From an uncultured Prevotella sp. (GTDB lineage: Bacteria > Bacteroidota > Bacteroidia > Bacteroidales > Bacteroidaceae), in assembly GCA_900319905.1 (NCBI GenBank), contig ONQB01000018.1, positions 1 to 64,000 of the forward strand: a stretch of 64,000 nucleotides of DNA, read 5' to 3'. The position numbers and the translations under genes were made by a program. The notes beneath the pieces were generated by a model, which was not told where the DNA came from, did no database searches, and saw only the letters and a program-made list of their open reading frames with translations. Shown piece after piece: positions 57,450-64,000 of the stretch (position 1 is its first letter; every line of letters begins with the position of its first letter).

Positions 57450-58487
57450 ATGAGCAAAATCATTCGACCGCAACATTACAAGTCCTTGCTTGACAAGCAT
57501 CAGACGGAGCAGGGCATTAAGCTGATCAAGGATTTCTTTCAGCAGAATTTGGCAACCGAATTGCGTCTGACGCGTGTGACGGCACCTTTGTTTGTGATGA
57601 AGGGCTTGGGCATCAACGATGACCTCAATGGCGTGGAGCGCCCTGTGACGTTCCCCATCAAGGACTTGGGTGACGCCAAGGCAGAAGTTGTTCATTCTCT
57701 GGCTAAATGGAAGCGACTCACGCTGGCCGAATACCATATTGAACCGGGCTTTGGCATTTATACCGACATGAATGCCATCCGAGCCGATGAGGAGTTGGAC
57801 AACCTCCATTCGCTGTATGTTGACCAATGGGACTGGGAAGCTGTCATCACCCGTGAGGAGCGCAAGGTGGCCTTCTTGGAGGATGTCGTGCGTCGCATCT
57901 ATTCTGCCATTCGCCGTACCGAATACCTGACGTATGAGTACTTCCCGCAGATCAAGCCATTCCTGCCCAAGGAAATTCATTTCATCCATTCGCAGGACCT
58001 GCTCGATCTCTATCCCGACAAGACACCGAAGGAGCGTGAGGATGCCATCTGCCGTCAATATGGCGCCGTGTTTGTGGAAGGCATTGGCGGTAAGTTGTCC
58101 GACGGAAAGAAGCACGACGGTCGTGCTCCTGACTACGATGACTGGTCGACGATTGCGGAGAACGGGAAGATGGGTCTCAATGGTGACATCCTCATCTGGT
58201 ACCCCACGTTGGACCGCGCTTTCGAACTGAGTTCGATGGGTATCCGTGTGGACAAAGAAAGCCTGTTGCGCCAATTGAAGATAGAAGGGAAGGAAGACCG
58301 CGAGAAGCTCTACTTCCATCAGCAGTTGCTTAATGGCAAGCTGCCGCTGAGCATCGGTGGCGGTATCGGTCAGAGCCGCCTGTGCATGATGATGTTGCAC
58401 AAGGCCCATATCGGTGAGATTCAGGCCAGTATCTGGCCCGACGAGATGCGAAAGAAATGCCATGAGCTGGGCATGGAGCTCATCTAA
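57450..58487 (+). CDS. asnA: aspartate-ammonia ligase (asparagine synthetase A)
   Basis: 345 residues. It amidates aspartate with ammonia and ATP. Related to class II tRNA synthetases; typical segments are QGIKLIKDFFQ, TAPLFVMKGLGINDDLNG, YVDQWDWEAVI and the C-terminal GGGIGQSRLCM. Monocistronic with its own promoter and terminator. Confidence 0.96.
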   Translation: MSKIIRPQHYKSLLDKHQTEQGIKLIKDFFQQNLATELRLTRVTAPLFVMKGLGINDDLNGVERPVTFPIKDLGDAKAEVVHSLAKWKRLTLAEYHIEPGFGIYTDMNAIRADEELDNLHSLYVDQWDWEAVITREERKVAFLEDVVRRIYSAIRRTEYLTYEYFPQIKPFLPKEIHFIHSQDLLDLYPDKTPKEREDAICRQYGAVFVEGIGGKLSDGKKHDGRAPDYDDWSTIAENGKMGLNGDILIWYPTLDRAFELSSMGIRVDKESLLRQLKIEGKEDREKLYFHQQLLNGKLPLSIGGGIGQSRLCMMMLHKAHIGEIQASIWPDEMRKKCHELGMELI

Positions 58488-58568
58488 AGCAATTAATCAT
58501 AACGATTGTTTGTTAATTCAACAATTGCCTACACGGATTTACAGTTATAGACAGCTAAAACTATTGAG

Positions 58569-58606
58569 GAGTATGTGATCCAAAGTGAGGGTTACATACT
58601 CTTTTT
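58569..58606 (+). terminator. rho-independent terminator after asnA
   Basis: GAGTATGTGATCC (58569-58581) pairs with GGTTACATACTC (58590-58601), one mismatch region, followed by TTTTT. Confidence 0.85.
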
Positions 58607-59039: not shown

Positions 59040-60140
59040 ATGCCAATCATAAAGTCTATATACTGGAATCAAGCAACGCCAGACACTTTTGTGTATTTGT
59101 TTCCATTTAAAGACATAACAATGGGCAGCGTACTGACAGTTAATGAAAGTCAGGAGGCATATTTCTTTAAAAACGGAAATCTATGCGATAGATTTGGCCC
59201 AGGGAGGCATGTTTTGTCTTCCAATAATCTCCCTATACTTGAAAAGATAATAAACATCCCTAGTGGCGGAGACTCCACTTTCAAAGCAAGCATCTGGTTT
59301 GTAAGCAAGCTGGAAAAACGCAACATGCTTTGGGGAGGCGGCGGATTGAGAATAGTTGATCCATATTTTCAAGTACCTATAAAATTATCAGCACGTGGAC
59401 AATACGGAATAAGAATAAAAGACGGCGGATTGTTGTTGTTGAAATTCGTAGGTACACAAGCCATCTTCACAACTGAGGATATATTGGATCAGTTCAGAAT
59501 AGATGTGCTGGAATCCGTCAAAGTTTCCATTTCCCGATATATGAAGGAAAAGAAGATCAATATCAACGAACTTGGCACAGAGTACAAAAAACTCAGCAAC
59601 GTGATAGCGACAGAACTCCAGCATGCCTTTGATGAGTATGGCGTAGAACTTCTCAACTTCAACATTGAGGACATAAATTTCGACGAGAACGATAAGGGCT
59701 ACCAAACCGTTATGGAAGGCATCGCTGAACAGGCTAAGCTGAACAAGTTAGGTGTCAACTACGTCCAGCAGAAACAAATAGATATTGCCCAGACCTTAGC
59801 AGCAAATCAGGGTGCTGGTACATTAATGGGCGCAGGAATCGGTCTGAGTGTAGGTCAACAGGTTGGGGATGTTTTCAAACAGACATTATCTCAAAGTGCT
59901 ATAGCTCCCAACACACAAGAGGAATCCCATCCTGCTTATTATGTTGCTGTTGATGGAAAGACAACTGGGCCATTCCGTTGGAACAGGATCAAGGAAATGG
60001 TGATTTCAGGGGATATTGTAGGCAGCACCTATGTTTACAAGGTTGCAGGAACAGCGTGGGTAAAGGCGAAAGACGAGCCAGAGATAGTTCAACTTCTGAA
60101 CAGTATTTTGCCACCACCTCCACCACCTCCTTCTGAATAG
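59040..60140 (+). CDS. SPFH-domain protein with C-terminal GYF_2 domain
   Basis: 366 residues. The SPFH/band-7 core spans ~25-250 (SVLTVNESQEAYFFKNG; FGPGRHVLSS; LESVKVSISRYMKEKKI), in the style of the YdjI/virion-core-like group, with a helical stretch rich in Gln/Ala (~240-285) and a Gly-rich amphipathic segment. In that group the C-terminus is often a zinc ribbon; here it is a GYF_2-type domain (~298-352, YYVAVDGKTTGPFRW ... TYVYKVAGTAWVKA) followed by PPPPPPP. There is no signal peptide. It probably oligomerises on membranes as a scaffold. First gene of an AT-rich cluster. Confidence 0.85.
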   Translation: MPIIKSIYWNQATPDTFVYLFPFKDITMGSVLTVNESQEAYFFKNGNLCDRFGPGRHVLSSNNLPILEKIINIPSGGDSTFKASIWFVSKLEKRNMLWGGGGLRIVDPYFQVPIKLSARGQYGIRIKDGGLLLLKFVGTQAIFTTEDILDQFRIDVLESVKVSISRYMKEKKININELGTEYKKLSNVIATELQHAFDEYGVELLNFNIEDINFDENDKGYQTVMEGIAEQAKLNKLGVNYVQQKQIDIAQTLAANQGAGTLMGAGIGLSVGQQVGDVFKQTLSQSAIAPNTQEESHPAYYVAVDGKTTGPFRWNRIKEMVISGDIVGSTYVYKVAGTAWVKAKDEPEIVQLLNSILPPPPPPPSE

Positions 60141-60179
60141 CCATCAAATCATGTCATCATTATTATAATATAAAAGGCA

Positions 60180-60860
60180 ATGAAAAATAAGGTATTCTTT
60201 ACTATATTCGTTCTAATAGAATGCTTCATCGTTTGGATGGTATTCTATTTGGTTTTTCCAGCTGTCACATCAATGATGATGTGGTCTGTCATATCTGGAA
60301 TGGTCATGGTTGTAGTATTGTCAGTGAATTTGCTTATACCGACTTCTCTGAGATTCCTAAATTTGCAAAATACGTCTGCCCTGATAATTGCAAACATATC
60401 AAGTGTAGCCCAATTTCTTTGGACATTGACTTTTGTATTTCTTGTAGGCGACTTTAATGATTCGACCCGTAGTCTGACACCTTTATATATAGGCTATCTG
60501 GTTATCTGCGGAATTAGTCTATTCCTCATAATGATGGGGAGACACGGCGGAAACATTGCAGAAAGTGGAAACCTTGCTGTTCAAAACTACGGATTAACCA
60601 AGGATGCTATCATAGGAAAGATGAGAAGCACCATGACGCTGATAGAAGGTCTGGACACTAATCCTCGTTCTGACTTACGTAAGTCTTTTAGTCACAGTAT
60701 TGACATCTTTCGTACATTTTCTGCCAGCATTGTTATGGCACATGGAAATGAGATCTCTAACCTCATTGAACAGATAAATACTAAGGTTCATTCTGGCAAT
60801 TTGCCTGAACTCGAACACGAGATAAACACTTTCAATAATTATCTAAAATTATTAAAATGA
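60180..60860 (+). CDS. four-helix membrane protein, unknown family
   Basis: 226 residues. Four membrane segments at ~5-27, 32-52, 66-92 and 101-118, then a soluble helical domain (~120-226; IDIFRTFSASIVMAHGNEISNLIEQINTKVH in part). No catalytic or binding motif recognised. Its stop overlaps the next start (ATGA), so it is translated together with the zinc-ribbon TM2 protein and may form a complex with it. Confidence 0.8.
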   Translation: MKNKVFFTIFVLIECFIVWMVFYLVFPAVTSMMMWSVISGMVMVVVLSVNLLIPTSLRFLNLQNTSALIIANISSVAQFLWTLTFVFLVGDFNDSTRSLTPLYIGYLVICGISLFLIMMGRHGGNIAESGNLAVQNYGLTKDAIIGKMRSTMTLIEGLDTNPRSDLRKSFSHSIDIFRTFSASIVMAHGNEISNLIEQINTKVHSGNLPELEHEINTFNNYLKLLK

Positions 60861-61300
60861 GCGATTTAATCAAATGCCCGGTATGCGGCGGAACAAAATG
60901 CGAACAGGTGTCAGGCAGCAATTACCGTTGTCTGTATTGTGGCTCTAACTTCGTAGTTGATAGCCCAGCGCAAGAACAAAAGACGGAACCGCAACCACAG
61001 CAGCCTACTCAGCCACAACAGCCAGTGCAGCCACAGGTTATCTATGTGCAGGCCCAGCCACAAGTCAGTGAACCCAGAAGGGCAAGAATTGCTAACCGAA
61101 GCAGGGTGGCTGCTATTTTATTGGCATTATTCTTGGGGGGATTAGGAATTCACCAGTTCTATCTGGGTAACTCAGGCCGTGGAATACTATATCTGCTCTT
61201 TTGCTGGACATTTATTCCGTCCCTCGTTGCATTATTCGACTTTTTCGTTTTCTTGTTCATGAGTGATAGTGAGTTCGATCAGAGATACAATTACAGATAG
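60857..61300 (+). CDS. zinc-ribbon TM2-domain membrane protein, copy 1
   Basis: 147 residues. N-terminal zinc ribbon with Cys7, Cys10, Cys25 and Cys28 (IKCPVCGG ... YRCLYCGS), a Gln/Pro-rich linker (~38-73), then a TM2 domain of two helices with the family motif GGLGIHQFYLGNSGRGILYLL and the end FDQRYNYR. The zinc ribbon should be cytoplasmic. TM2 proteins are widespread and mostly uncharacterised. A paralogue follows directly. Confidence 0.87.
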   Translation: MSDLIKCPVCGGTKCEQVSGSNYRCLYCGSNFVVDSPAQEQKTEPQPQQPTQPQQPVQPQVIYVQAQPQVSEPRRARIANRSRVAAILLALFLGGLGIHQFYLGNSGRGILYLLFCWTFIPSLVALFDFFVFLFMSDSEFDQRYNYR

Positions 61301-61383
61301 CCTCTGATTTACTACATTTATTATATAATGGGATTCGTCTTGGTACGTTTCAACAGACATAATTCATCAAACATCACTGCTAT

Positions 61384-61884
61384 ATGGAGAATCAAACTAT
61401 AAAATGTCCTGTGTGTGGGGGAACGAAAACACAGCAACTCTCCCCTAAACGTTATCGCTGTTTGTATTGTGGTACTACCTTCGCATGCGACATTAAGGAA
61501 GAATCCAATGAGACACCGAAGACGACAGCCAGCACATCAAACCAGACAAGTCCCAAGATAATTGTCGTCCAAACTCCAACGCAGTCGAAAACTGCAAAGC
61601 CAAGACGTATAAGGAATTGCAAAAAGGCTACAGCCACAGCACTCGCATTCCTCGGAGGGATAGTTGGCGCTCAATTTTTCTATTTGGGCAAAACTGCTAT
61701 AGGTGTACTCTTCTTGTTGATAGGGTTAATATTCTTGTGCTTTTGTTGCATAGGTCCAGAAATTTCAATATTATTTCTATTGAGTTGTTCACCTATTTTT
61801 GTTGGCTTCATTAGTGGCATCAAGTTCCTGATGATGAGCGAGGAACAATTTGACAAGTGCTATAACTACGAATATTATTATTGA
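61384..61884 (+). CDS. zinc-ribbon TM2-like membrane protein, copy 2
   Basis: 166 residues. Same layout as the gene before it: zinc ribbon Cys8, Cys11, Cys26, Cys29 (IKCPVCGGTK ... YRCLYCGT), Thr/Ser-rich linker, hydrophobic C-terminal part and the ending FDKCYNYE. The TM2 motif is diverged (GGIVGAQFFYLGKTAIGVLFLL) and the hydrophobic region is longer, perhaps three helices. Tandem duplication followed by divergence is the likely origin. Confidence 0.85.
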   Translation: MENQTIKCPVCGGTKTQQLSPKRYRCLYCGTTFACDIKEESNETPKTTASTSNQTSPKIIVVQTPTQSKTAKPRRIRNCKKATATALAFLGGIVGAQFFYLGKTAIGVLFLLIGLIFLCFCCIGPEISILFLLSCSPIFVGFISGIKFLMMSEEQFDKCYNYEYYY

Positions 61885-61903
61885 AATCTAAGTCGTTTAA
61901 GCT

Positions 61904-62611
61904 ATGGAAAAAGACAAATACTACGACAAAGCTTATGAGCAATTTCAAAATGGCAATTATGATCAGGCACTAGAGAACATGAAATTGTCTCAGACGGTAA
62001 GCGAAGACGAAAGGAAGAAGTTCATAAATCAGTGCCTTTCATTTATCACCCAGCAATACATCTACTTGATTCACGAGGCAATCAACAACAGAGATTACAC
62101 CGAAGCGAATCAACTAAAGGGTATGTATTTGCACTTATATGGTGAGAATAAGGAAATAGCATCTATAGGTATACCTACAGATGGACAATCAAACAGCACC
62201 TCTCAGAATTCCCCGACAACTCAGATGCCAGAATCCCAAGTAAGCCGTGAGACTGAAAGAACAGCAGCAGAGGTAAATAATGCATCACCAAGGCCTACCG
62301 TAACCTTTGTCCAGTCTACATCACCGGATAATTCCAACAAAAATATCATCAAATGGTCTGTAATTGGTGTTATAGCAGCCGTTTTGATAATTGCTTTGAT
62401 TATCGCCGTTTCCTCTAAGTCTAATGAGTCTGGGCAAGTCAGTGCACCAGCTGTTATGATAATACAACTCCAGAATCATCAAGTGACGAGTCTGCTGTTG
62501 AGAATACGTCAACTTATGAAGGAAACGAGAGTAATGAACCATCTGCCGAGAGTAACGAGTCGTCCGAAGACAGTTATAGTCCAGATGAAAATAATAACAA
62601 TTCAGAAATAA
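61904..62611 (+). CDS. helical-repeat, single-TM protein with apparent frameshift
   Basis: 235 residues as read. N-terminal TPR-like helices (~1-85, YYDKAYEQFQNGNYDQALEN), a Ser/Thr/Asn-rich linker (~90-145) and one membrane segment (~149-170). After residue 184 the reading turns basic and ends at 62611. The other frame from 62455 is open to a TGA at 62668-62670 and encodes a 71-residue acidic, Ser/Glu/Asn/Asp-rich tail (DNTTPESSSDESAVENTS and on); that stop overlaps the next gene as ATGA. One missing T at GCTGTTATGAT (62451-62460) explains both facts. The restored protein would have ~255 residues. It could be a sequencing indel or a real mutation. Confidence 0.8.
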   Translation: MEKDKYYDKAYEQFQNGNYDQALENMKLSQTVSEDERKKFINQCLSFITQQYIYLIHEAINNRDYTEANQLKGMYLHLYGENKEIASIGIPTDGQSNSTSQNSPTTQMPESQVSRETERTAAEVNNASPRPTVTFVQSTSPDNSNKNIIKWSVIGVIAAVLIIALIIAVSSKSNESGQVSAPAVMIIQLQNHQVTSLLLRIRQLMKETRVMNHLPRVTSRPKTVIVQMKIITIQK

Positions 62612-62666
62612 ACAGCTCTGACGACGAGTCTGGAGTAGGTGTTGATGAAGAAGCGGAGGATTGGAG

Positions 62667-63107
62667 ATGAAAAAAACATTTGGATACAGAAAGACAGCAC
62701 TACACGTGCTTATGGTTATAATGATGTTGCTCTTTGCTGGCAACGTGCATGCACAAAAATGGATGATGATCCTCAGAAAGCCGGACAGTAGGGTCTTTGT
62801 CAACAAAATGGTGATTCCCGACAAATACGGCTATCGTGTGTTCGTAATGTTCTCCTTTGACACGCCAGCAGCACGCCGTGACATACGGACTTATTATGGC
62901 ATCAAGCGTACGCCGTACTTTGAAATTACAGGTTTTATTTTCAACGGCACTTGGACAAAGATGGCTCAAGCTATTGACAATTTGCTTGATGCTAATGGCA
63001 AAAAGATTTACTCCAATCAGAGTAGTCGTCTGGAATGGCGTTACGTTGACGGTTACGTTGAGAAGAAAATTGCCCACATTGCTAGGAAGTATTATAATGA
63101 GCAATAG
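62667..63107 (+). CDS. small exported protein, unknown family
   Basis: 146 residues. A signal peptide is probably cut after VHA (residue 29), leaving ~117 residues (KWMMILRKPDSRVFVNKMVIPDKYG ... in part; GFIFNGTWTKMAQAID) and a basic C-terminus. No family recognised. ATG at 62667 is chosen because it forms an ATGA overlap with the acidic frame of the preceding gene; a TTG two codons earlier is in frame but less likely. Confidence 0.75.
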   Translation: MKKTFGYRKTALHVLMVIMMLLFAGNVHAQKWMMILRKPDSRVFVNKMVIPDKYGYRVFVMFSFDTPAARRDIRTYYGIKRTPYFEITGFIFNGTWTKMAQAIDNLLDANGKKIYSNQSSRLEWRYVDGYVEKKIAHIARKYYNEQ

Positions 63108-63190
63108 GTAGCAAGTATGTCTGCCGAATGCCATTGTAGGAAAGGTAATAGTCTTGTTCTATCTTTAACCATTATCAATATCATTTGATT

Positions 63191-64000
63191 ATGAAGTATC
63201 AGTTCTATCTGTCGTTAATGACATTGATTCTAGCATTTTCCAATACAGGAAAGGCACAAGAATTAGATAAGCAGTCCGTCTCTTATCTCTCTGATAGGGT
63301 TACGGCCGTATATAATGACCACTCTGAAAATCGGGAAGAGAAATACACCTCGACAGAGTACTACAATATCTGGAAGGCTGTTACTGAATACGACAAGAAG
63401 CTGGTTGGTGAGGTCGGCTTCTTCGACTCTGACCATTGGTGGCGGTCACAAGACTCCTGCGATCCGAAAATGTCTGTGATTTCAGCTGAGATAAATTCGT
63501 CCACTTCTGCAACTGTGAAAGTTCGACTGACTGATTGTGGAGAGTCTTCTGTTCTCACATTTCCTATGGTGTATGAGCGTGATGATTGGTTCATTGATGA
63601 TTTCGTCACTTGGTTTGAGGGAAAGGAATGGTCAGAGAAGAAGATGATGAAAGACTATTGTGCCGAGAATGGAATTCAGGTAGGGACAGAGACTCCTATT
63701 CTGGTTCAAGAGACCTCACCATTCTTACCAATCAAGAAGTTTGTTGATTATCAAGGAACAAGTAATGTGTTAATCAAAGAGGTGTTGAAAGATGAAGGCT
63801 ACGCACCCATCGGCGACAATTGGTTTAAAGGCTCTCAGTTCAAATCCATAGAGGATGAGTATGGTAATAGAGAATTCCGCCCCATCAACAAGGAGAAGGC
63901 TAGCATGGTGCAGGTTTACCAAGGCTCCAATCTGTACGAAATGAGCATGAGACTCTATACGAAGGAGGAACTGAAAACTTGCATACAACAGCTCGAAGAC
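63191..64000 (+). CDS. secreted protein, partial (runs off the window)
   Basis: 270 residues read, still open at the window end. N-terminal signal (MKYQFYLSLMTLILAFSNTGKAQ). The segment ~25-145 has the pattern of small DUF3828-like periplasmic domains (YYNIWKAVTEYDKKL; HWWRSQDSCD; TVKVRLTDCGESSVLTFPMV; DWFIDDFVTWFEG); this is a resemblance by eye. The rest (DYQGTSNVLIKEVLKDEGYAPIG in part) is unassigned. The last gene of the AT-rich cluster visible here, 83 bp after the previous stop. Confidence 0.7.
   Translation, partial: MKYQFYLSLMTLILAFSNTGKAQELDKQSVSYLSDRVTAVYNDHSENREEKYTSTEYYNIWKAVTEYDKKLVGEVGFFDSDHWWRSQDSCDPKMSVISAEINSSTSATVKVRLTDCGESSVLTFPMVYERDDWFIDDFVTWFEGKEWSEKKMMKDYCAENGIQVGTETPILVQETSPFLPIKKFVDYQGTSNVLIKEVLKDEGYAPIGDNWFKGSQFKSIEDEYGNREFRPINKEKASMVQVYQGSNLYEMSMRLYTKEELKTCIQQLED

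Follow-up and report, generated by a model that had tools for sequence, protein, structure and literature searches.

At the end of a 64,000-nucleotide stretch of DNA from an uncultured Prevotella sp. (assembly GCA_900319905.1, contig ONQB01000018.1; the whole stretch is hereafter called the window) lies a string of AT-rich genes, all on the plus strand between asnA and glyS, that is led by a gene for a protein of the SPFH superfamily. Sequence comparisons indicate that the SPFH/zinc-ribbon membrane module to which its first genes belong is real and recurrent, patchily distributed in the genus and without PspA nearby, and the module is probably a PspA-independent SPFH scaffold for the surveillance of the membrane or of membrane proteins. 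Direct observations comprise the domains of the encoded proteins, the presence of a three-gene set in one relative, a looser association of SPFH and zinc-ribbon genes in many, a coupling of the GYF_2 domain to poly-proline, and the lack of a PspA match in the assembly. This assembly, in which the window lies on contig C16, amounts to 3.1 Mb and is 86% complete.

Conservation of the core genes

The core appears to consist of three genes, encoding the SPFH protein, a protein with four transmembrane (TM) windows (the 4TM protein) and a zinc-ribbon (ZnR) TM protein, as judged from one relative. This nearest relative, a congener (G332), holds the three genes in the order of the window, with a 4-bp overlap kept, followed by unrelated genes. 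Its SPFH, 4TM and ZnR-TM proteins are 63%, 23% and 37% identical to those of the window, the last over 72 residues; the 4TM relative, of 240 amino acids (aa), was found by phmmer at 3.7e-11 (best of 300 shuffles, 0.11), and the ZnR-TM protein has 119 aa. In another genome (G346), the gene directly before SPFH encodes a relative of the first ZnR-TM2 protein of the window (E 2.9e-19).

Beyond these two genomes, the window SPFH protein was matched in 26 of 149 genomes and in 64 of 398 sampled genomes of the genus (its own included in both counts), and the 4TM protein in 2 of the 149. Gene neighbourhoods were compared in 127 loci, made up of 107 (27 from the assemblies of relatives and 80 from named genomes) and 20 added from the genus, the latter among the higher-scoring genus matches and drawn from 20 of the 64 SPFH-matching genomes. 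Relatives of the window's two ZnR proteins were encoded by 16 genes in 14 of these loci, all 16 at most five genes from the SPFH gene and 15 of them at most four, in a set that was chosen by SPFH and so cannot tell how often such ZnR proteins occur without it. The sole 4TM relative detected in the 127 loci adjoins SPFH. The window 4TM protein was also considered as a homologue of the common 115-aa 4TM partner, for which profile comparison gave no support.

A survey by gene features rather than by homology drew on the 93 of the 107 loci in which the open reading frame (ORF) caller found the SPFH gene, 14 being dropped, with 372 genes of at least 200 aa from the same loci as controls; the loci are not phylogenetically independent. 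A ZnR gene, defined by two CxxC pairs near the N-terminus, lay at most three same-strand genes away from 56/93 SPFH genes as opposed to 21/372 controls. The corresponding values were 40/93 and 18/372 for a ZnR gene with a TM segment, 30/93 and 23/372 for a small 4TM gene, and 15/93 and 5/372 for ZnR and small 4TM genes together. For the genus alone (32 loci, 12 of the 107 and the 20 added; SPFH gene called in 30), a ZnR gene on either strand lay at most three genes away in 24 of the 30, and one of the six misses (L214) does have a ZnR gene that the ORF caller had dropped. By these comparisons, the association of the core genes exceeds chance; for the remaining genes of the string there is no such support.

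No PspA match was found in the window's assembly, where, at 86% completeness, one could be missed, and two PspA queries gave none among the ORFs called in the 107 loci. Among 90 genomes of the genus, six had a PspA match at 0.001 and one match passed the cut-off (G072); the latter is partial, lies inside a 1027-aa frame and is probably a coiled coil. The six do not include any of the 12 SPFH-positive genomes of the genus.

The GYF_2 domain and its poly-proline tail

The sequence-only reading had described the SPFH protein as carrying a GYF_2 tail, and Pfam bears this out with matches to Band_7_1 (PF13421; 6.8e-37) and GYF_2 (7.6e-9), the classical Band_7 match being below the Pfam cut-off. The GYF_2 domain spans residues 300-348 and is followed by a C-terminal tail, PPPPPPPSE; the protein has no TM window by hydropathy and no CxxC. 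Three consecutive prolines (PPP) occur in the last 25 residues of 88/94 SPFH proteins with GYF_2 and of 0/17 without it (n = 111), by a GYF_2 profile that was built from 18 aligned proteins, 17 of them within the 111. In the first set of 93, the tail was present in 73/79 proteins with the domain, 0/14 without, and 1/876 other proteins. Most of the SPFH proteins that lack GYF_2 terminate in zinc ribbons or, judged by motif, in SHOCT.

When the best 30 GYF_2 loci of the 90 genomes were inspected, 12 were SPFH and all 12 had PPP after the domain. Telling against a special role in SPFH proteins, PPP also lay at most 30 residues after GYF_2 in 13 of the 18 non-SPFH loci, which rules out the pair as an SPFH-only invention; counted by hmm rows, stray partial rows included, the figures were 15/19 SPFH and 13/25 non-SPFH. 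The coupling to PPP is therefore, on the sequences compared, a trait of these GYF_2 domains, strongest in SPFH, and no proof of an SPFH switch. The proline-rich linkers of the ZnR partner were also considered as a general GYF_2 ligand and rejected, only 2/70 partners having at least 10% proline.

The GYF domain binds proline-rich sites, according to PMC12034629. Among solved structures, the GYF_2 domain comes closest to 'Adventurous gliding motility protein X' (chain 7z3c, E 1.7e-10). A set of 14 named control genomes that contains B. subtilis and E. coli gave no GYF_2 match, and the GYF_2/poly-proline pair would thus be a directly testable switch without a counterpart in the usual models. At two loci (L057:7260-8983 and L061:6099-7941), the SPFH gene is followed by a separate gene for a GYF_2 protein of 112-116 aa, possibly a second clamp domain. 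The window's own genome encodes a second GYF_2 protein, not SPFH (L235:1462-2505; G000:C48, about 3100), in which an N-terminal GYF_2 domain is followed by TPPPIPG and one TM window.

Layout of the locus

Seven consecutive plus-strand genes with two ATGA overlaps had been read from the sequence. The ORFs and the overlap at 60857, between the end of the 4TM gene and the start of the first ZnR gene, were recovered; the second overlap (62667) joins the next gene to an acidic frame that is not that of the TPR-TM ORF (Table 1).

Table 1. Features of the gene string, its flanks and related modules (aa, amino acids; C16, contig that includes the window).
Feature	Position	Strand	Basis or remark
asnA	57450-58487		named by eye
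SPFH (Band_7_1) protein, 366 aa	59040-60140	+	Pfam, alignments, TM count
4TM protein, 226 aa	60180-60860	+	four TM windows, helical-looking C-terminal tail
First zinc-ribbon (2 CxxC) + TM2 protein, 147 aa	60857-61300	+	TM2 1.1e-16
Second zinc-ribbon protein, 166 aa	61384-61884	+	TM2 0.0014, below cut-off
TPR-like single-TM protein, 235 aa	61904-62611	+	weak TPR_1 match, E 0.11
Acidic open stretch, other frame than TPR-TM ORF	62428-62670	+	frame reading
148-aa protein	62661/62667-63107	+	export-like N-terminus by eye; no Pfam family
317-aa protein	63185/63191-64000, on to contig 64144	+	export-like N-terminus by eye; no Pfam family
Sel1-repeat gene (eighth)	C16:64137-65537		past window end; Sel1 repeats in Pfam scan
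Decayed, collapsed partial duplicate	C16:65672-66325 (L004:7273-7926)		just before glyS
glyS	from C16:66457		named by eye
B. finegoldii module	NZ_OY725907.1 60235-63994		annotated hypothetical, yidD, SPFH, hypothetical, zinc ribbon
SHOCT-like-tail SPFH modules	L055, L056, L058		same genus

The Pfam scan of the 4TM protein gave no family. The two ZnR proteins are paralogues with 40% identity, each with CxxC pairs near the N-terminus and two TM windows; their Pfam zinc-ribbon matches are below cut-off, and of the two TM2 domains that had been assigned, only that of the first protein passes it. For the next gene, thought to encode a single-TM protein of helical repeats with a long acidic tail, one TM window is present and the TPR match is weak; the ORF ends with a tail other than the acidic sequence, and the mismatch of frames could reflect a genuine break, an error in the assembly or another cause. 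Reading the DNA beyond 64,000, as had been suggested, gave the end of the seventh gene followed by the Sel1-repeat gene, the decayed duplicate and glyS. The duplicate consists of pieces of the TPR gene and of the terminal parts of the two genes after it, with 83-100% identity.

A terminator-like hairpin of 16 pairs (58566-58604) lies between asnA and the SPFH gene. Within the island, terminator-like sites exceed chance (12 vs 5.4 in shuffles) and sigma-70-like sites are at chance level (25 vs 21.7), an Rfam scan gave no matches, and a Bacteroidetes-type promoter pattern matched once, not upstream of the SPFH gene. One tRNA-Leu lies 4.4 kb beyond glyS. Elsewhere (L195:2765-4912), a Sel1-repeat-like protein adjoins a relative of the 317-aa protein at a locus with no SPFH gene called; these two proteins may be a separate pair.

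Composition and origin

The AT-rich composition noted at the outset is confirmed, with 24 G+C in positions 61381-61440 and 37-47% G+C in the island genes vs 52.8% for the window. SPFH genes likewise fall below the flank median in 20 of the 28 genus loci with a usable flank (median difference -4 points). The acquisition that had been suggested on these grounds is plausible, and it is weakened by the copies of G332, at 56-65% G+C against a flank median of 60%, and by the nine proteins scanned by Pfam, none of which is a mobility protein. At the asnA loci of 29 relatives, neither parC nor glyS was present within the flank (at most 1.5 kb). Plasmid records gave 22 with matches below 60% identity. 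Horizontal transfer of the gene string is thus a plausible but weak conclusion. An SPFH/zinc-ribbon pair also stands one gene before an asnA-like gene, named by eye, in a second species of the genus (L222; G434:C8:2819-7625); the position of SPFH beside asnA both there and in the window may reflect chance or a hot spot.

Proposed function and alternatives

In B. subtilis, YdjI is an SPFH protein, predicted to be soluble and without a TM anchor, that reaches the membrane only with YdjG and YdjH; the three proteins recruit PspA to the membrane, and both PspA and YdjI are interaction partners of YdjH (PMC8581546). YdjG combines two zinc ribbons with an NTF2-like domain and a TM segment, and YdjH is a TPM protein (PMC11237479). 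The explanation that we prefer, with confidence barely above even, is that the first three genes of the window's string and the duplicated ZnR gene encode a PspA-free SPFH complex that resembles YdjGHI and sits in the inner membrane. The soluble SPFH protein would probably oligomerise to a ring- or cage-like assembly at the cytoplasmic side, where the 4TM and ZnR/TM2 proteins would anchor it and put cytoplasmic zinc ribbons near it. Because GYF domains bind proline-rich peptides, GYF_2 probably binds the poly-proline tail of the SPFH protein itself, whether in cis or from one subunit to another, and this clamp could be released by a change at the membrane. The likely task would be to monitor or stabilise the membrane, or else membrane proteins just after their insertion, the latter being suggested by sister modules that add YidD. 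A more elaborate version, in which a YdjI-like scaffold split from PspA, became tied to membrane-protein insertion and forms, in the genus and its kin, a surveillance cage with a ZnR-gated GYF_2/poly-proline clamp, seems unlikely to hold as a whole.

Several observations weigh against this explanation. The full three-gene set is found by sequence in one relative only, '4TM' denoting a topology elsewhere, and hhalign gave probabilities of 0.3% alone and 10% in a mixed alignment for a relationship between the window 4TM protein and the 115-aa 4TM protein. The second of the two 4TM matches (G110; 6.8e-4) is a 6TM frame, at whose locus no SPFH gene was among the ORFs called, and 37/93 SPFH genes have no ZnR neighbour by the survey test. 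Outside the genus (59 genomes), PspA was present in 9/14 SPFH-positive vs 3/45 SPFH-negative genomes (Fisher 2.6e-5, a test that ignores relatedness), and band 7 genes lie next to pspA in Bacteroidota and other phyla (PMC9239133); SPFH relatives may still be working with PspA. By Pfam, the window 4TM protein, unlike YdjH, has no TPM domain, and the ZnR proteins, unlike YdjG, have TM2 and no NTF2/YpeB-like domain.

The same proteins could instead serve membrane-protein biogenesis or quality control, with SPFH as a holdase or scaffold beside the YidC/YidD route and the ZnR/TPR partners holding clients, much as HflKC acts as such a scaffold for FtsH. YidD is a membrane-protein insertion factor. 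A YidD-type sister module, in which a ZnR-TPR protein and a 1TM protein of about 228 aa surround SPFH, was found in 8/129 loci, seven from the genus (L035, L214-L218, L230) and one in a plasmid record of B. finegoldii. YidD is encoded directly upstream of SPFH in seven of the eight (six genus loci, not L217, and B. finegoldii), with Pfam matches past cut-off in the two proteins scanned (5.5e-11 and 8.2e-11), and the partner in these modules has a zinc ribbon followed by TPR matches, a TPR-like gene with a weak match being also near the window module. The window stretch and the G332 locus have no YidD relative, however, just 7 of the 129 loci have one, and YidD could be a neighbour of convenience. 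We regard this alternative as doubtful. Still less probable is a simple flotillin-like scaffold of a microdomain, without any role in sensing, which we consider very improbable: the SPFH fold and weak PDB profile matches to QmcA and stomatin chains (E 0.005-0.06) would agree with it, whereas the SPFH protein has no TM window, matches Band_7_1 rather than classical Band_7, and has recurrent ZnR neighbours.

The sequence-only reading had treated the genes as one cluster, and the whole eight-gene string could be a single system of scaffold, sensors and exported effectors for envelope stress or defence. All its genes share one strand from asnA to glyS and a similarly AT-rich composition, and a partial duplicate of three of them follows. 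Against this, G332 holds only the first three genes, and a search with the first 186 residues of the TPR protein matched 1/149 genomes, the window's own; the 148-aa protein was matched in 2/149, its own and one without an SPFH match; and the family of the 317-aa protein in 19/149, the 18 others by weak partial matches. No SPFH gene was among the ORFs called in nine opened loci of the 317-aa family, nor at the locus of the 148-aa relative (L191), where the ORF caller dropped that relative itself. Relatives of the TPR, 148-aa and 317-aa proteins were found in none of the 127 SPFH-selected loci, and the one Sel1 match there lies nine genes from SPFH. The cluster thus holds for the core genes, with ZnR and 4TM relatives near SPFH; the later genes (TPR-like, 148-aa, 317-aa) are neighbours whose membership in the module is unproven, and we judge a single system improbable. 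Of the two roles proposed for it, envelope stress may apply to the core only, by its likeness to B. subtilis YdjGHI. Defence was not borne out: two PADLOC matches reached 0.001 or better, one of 3.1e-5 in the linker and TM segment of the TPR-TM protein (residues 110-193) and one of 4.1e-4 in the Sel1 repeats, and both were judged to be chance, leaving no credible defence family, and searches bearing on a viral origin confirmed none of 16 pattern matches in viral contigs and gave one weak phage match.

Comparison with known systems

The core had been put forward as part of an undescribed system, and among the open-access matches listed, subscription papers being outside the scope, no description of an SPFH module with GYF_2, TM2, zinc ribbon or YidD was found. 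Its relatives with YidD share with the window the SPFH-GYF_2 protein, the zinc-ribbon protein and, between the two, a TM and helical protein (in B. finegoldii, where it has 251 aa and four TM windows, and in 6/7 genus loci, none being called in L230). They differ from it in having YidD and the 1TM protein upstream and in a zinc ribbon that is fused to TPR, without TM2. The modules with SHOCT-like tails encode SPFH, small 4TM and zinc-ribbon TM proteins in the order of the window, and matches to the second ZnR protein of the window were obtained for their ZnR proteins (E 8e-6 to 9e-9); unlike those of the window, the ZnR-TM proteins have 456-474 aa, and the SPFH tail appears, by motif, SHOCT-like and not GYF_2.

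Flotillins pair with NfeD-like proteins. The window shares an SPFH superfamily scaffold with flotillin/NfeD operons and differs from them in that its SPFH protein has no TM window, whereas flotillins attach to membranes unaided (PMC8581546), and in that the nine proteins scanned included no NfeD.

With pspA-ydjGHI, the window module shares an anchor-free Band_7_1 SPFH protein, a family that was also matched in the B. subtilis control genome, presumably as YdjI, and the placement of this protein beside a zinc-ribbon TM protein, comparable to YdjG, and another TM protein (PMC8581546, PMC11237479 and PMC9239133). Unlike that system, it has no PspA match beside the gene or elsewhere in the assembly, its SPFH protein ends in GYF_2 and poly-proline rather than in the zinc-finger tail of YdjI, and the order of genes differs. 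Differing from it in PspA, the SPFH zinc tail and TPM, the window module therefore resembles the pspA-ydjGHI plan, on present sequence comparisons, and is not a member of it. The window SPFH protein has matches in 64 of 398 sampled genomes of the genus, yet only one PspA match, a partial one, passed the cut-off among 90; should such modules protect the membrane independently of PspA, they would illustrate how SPFH scaffolds can act outside the phage-shock response.

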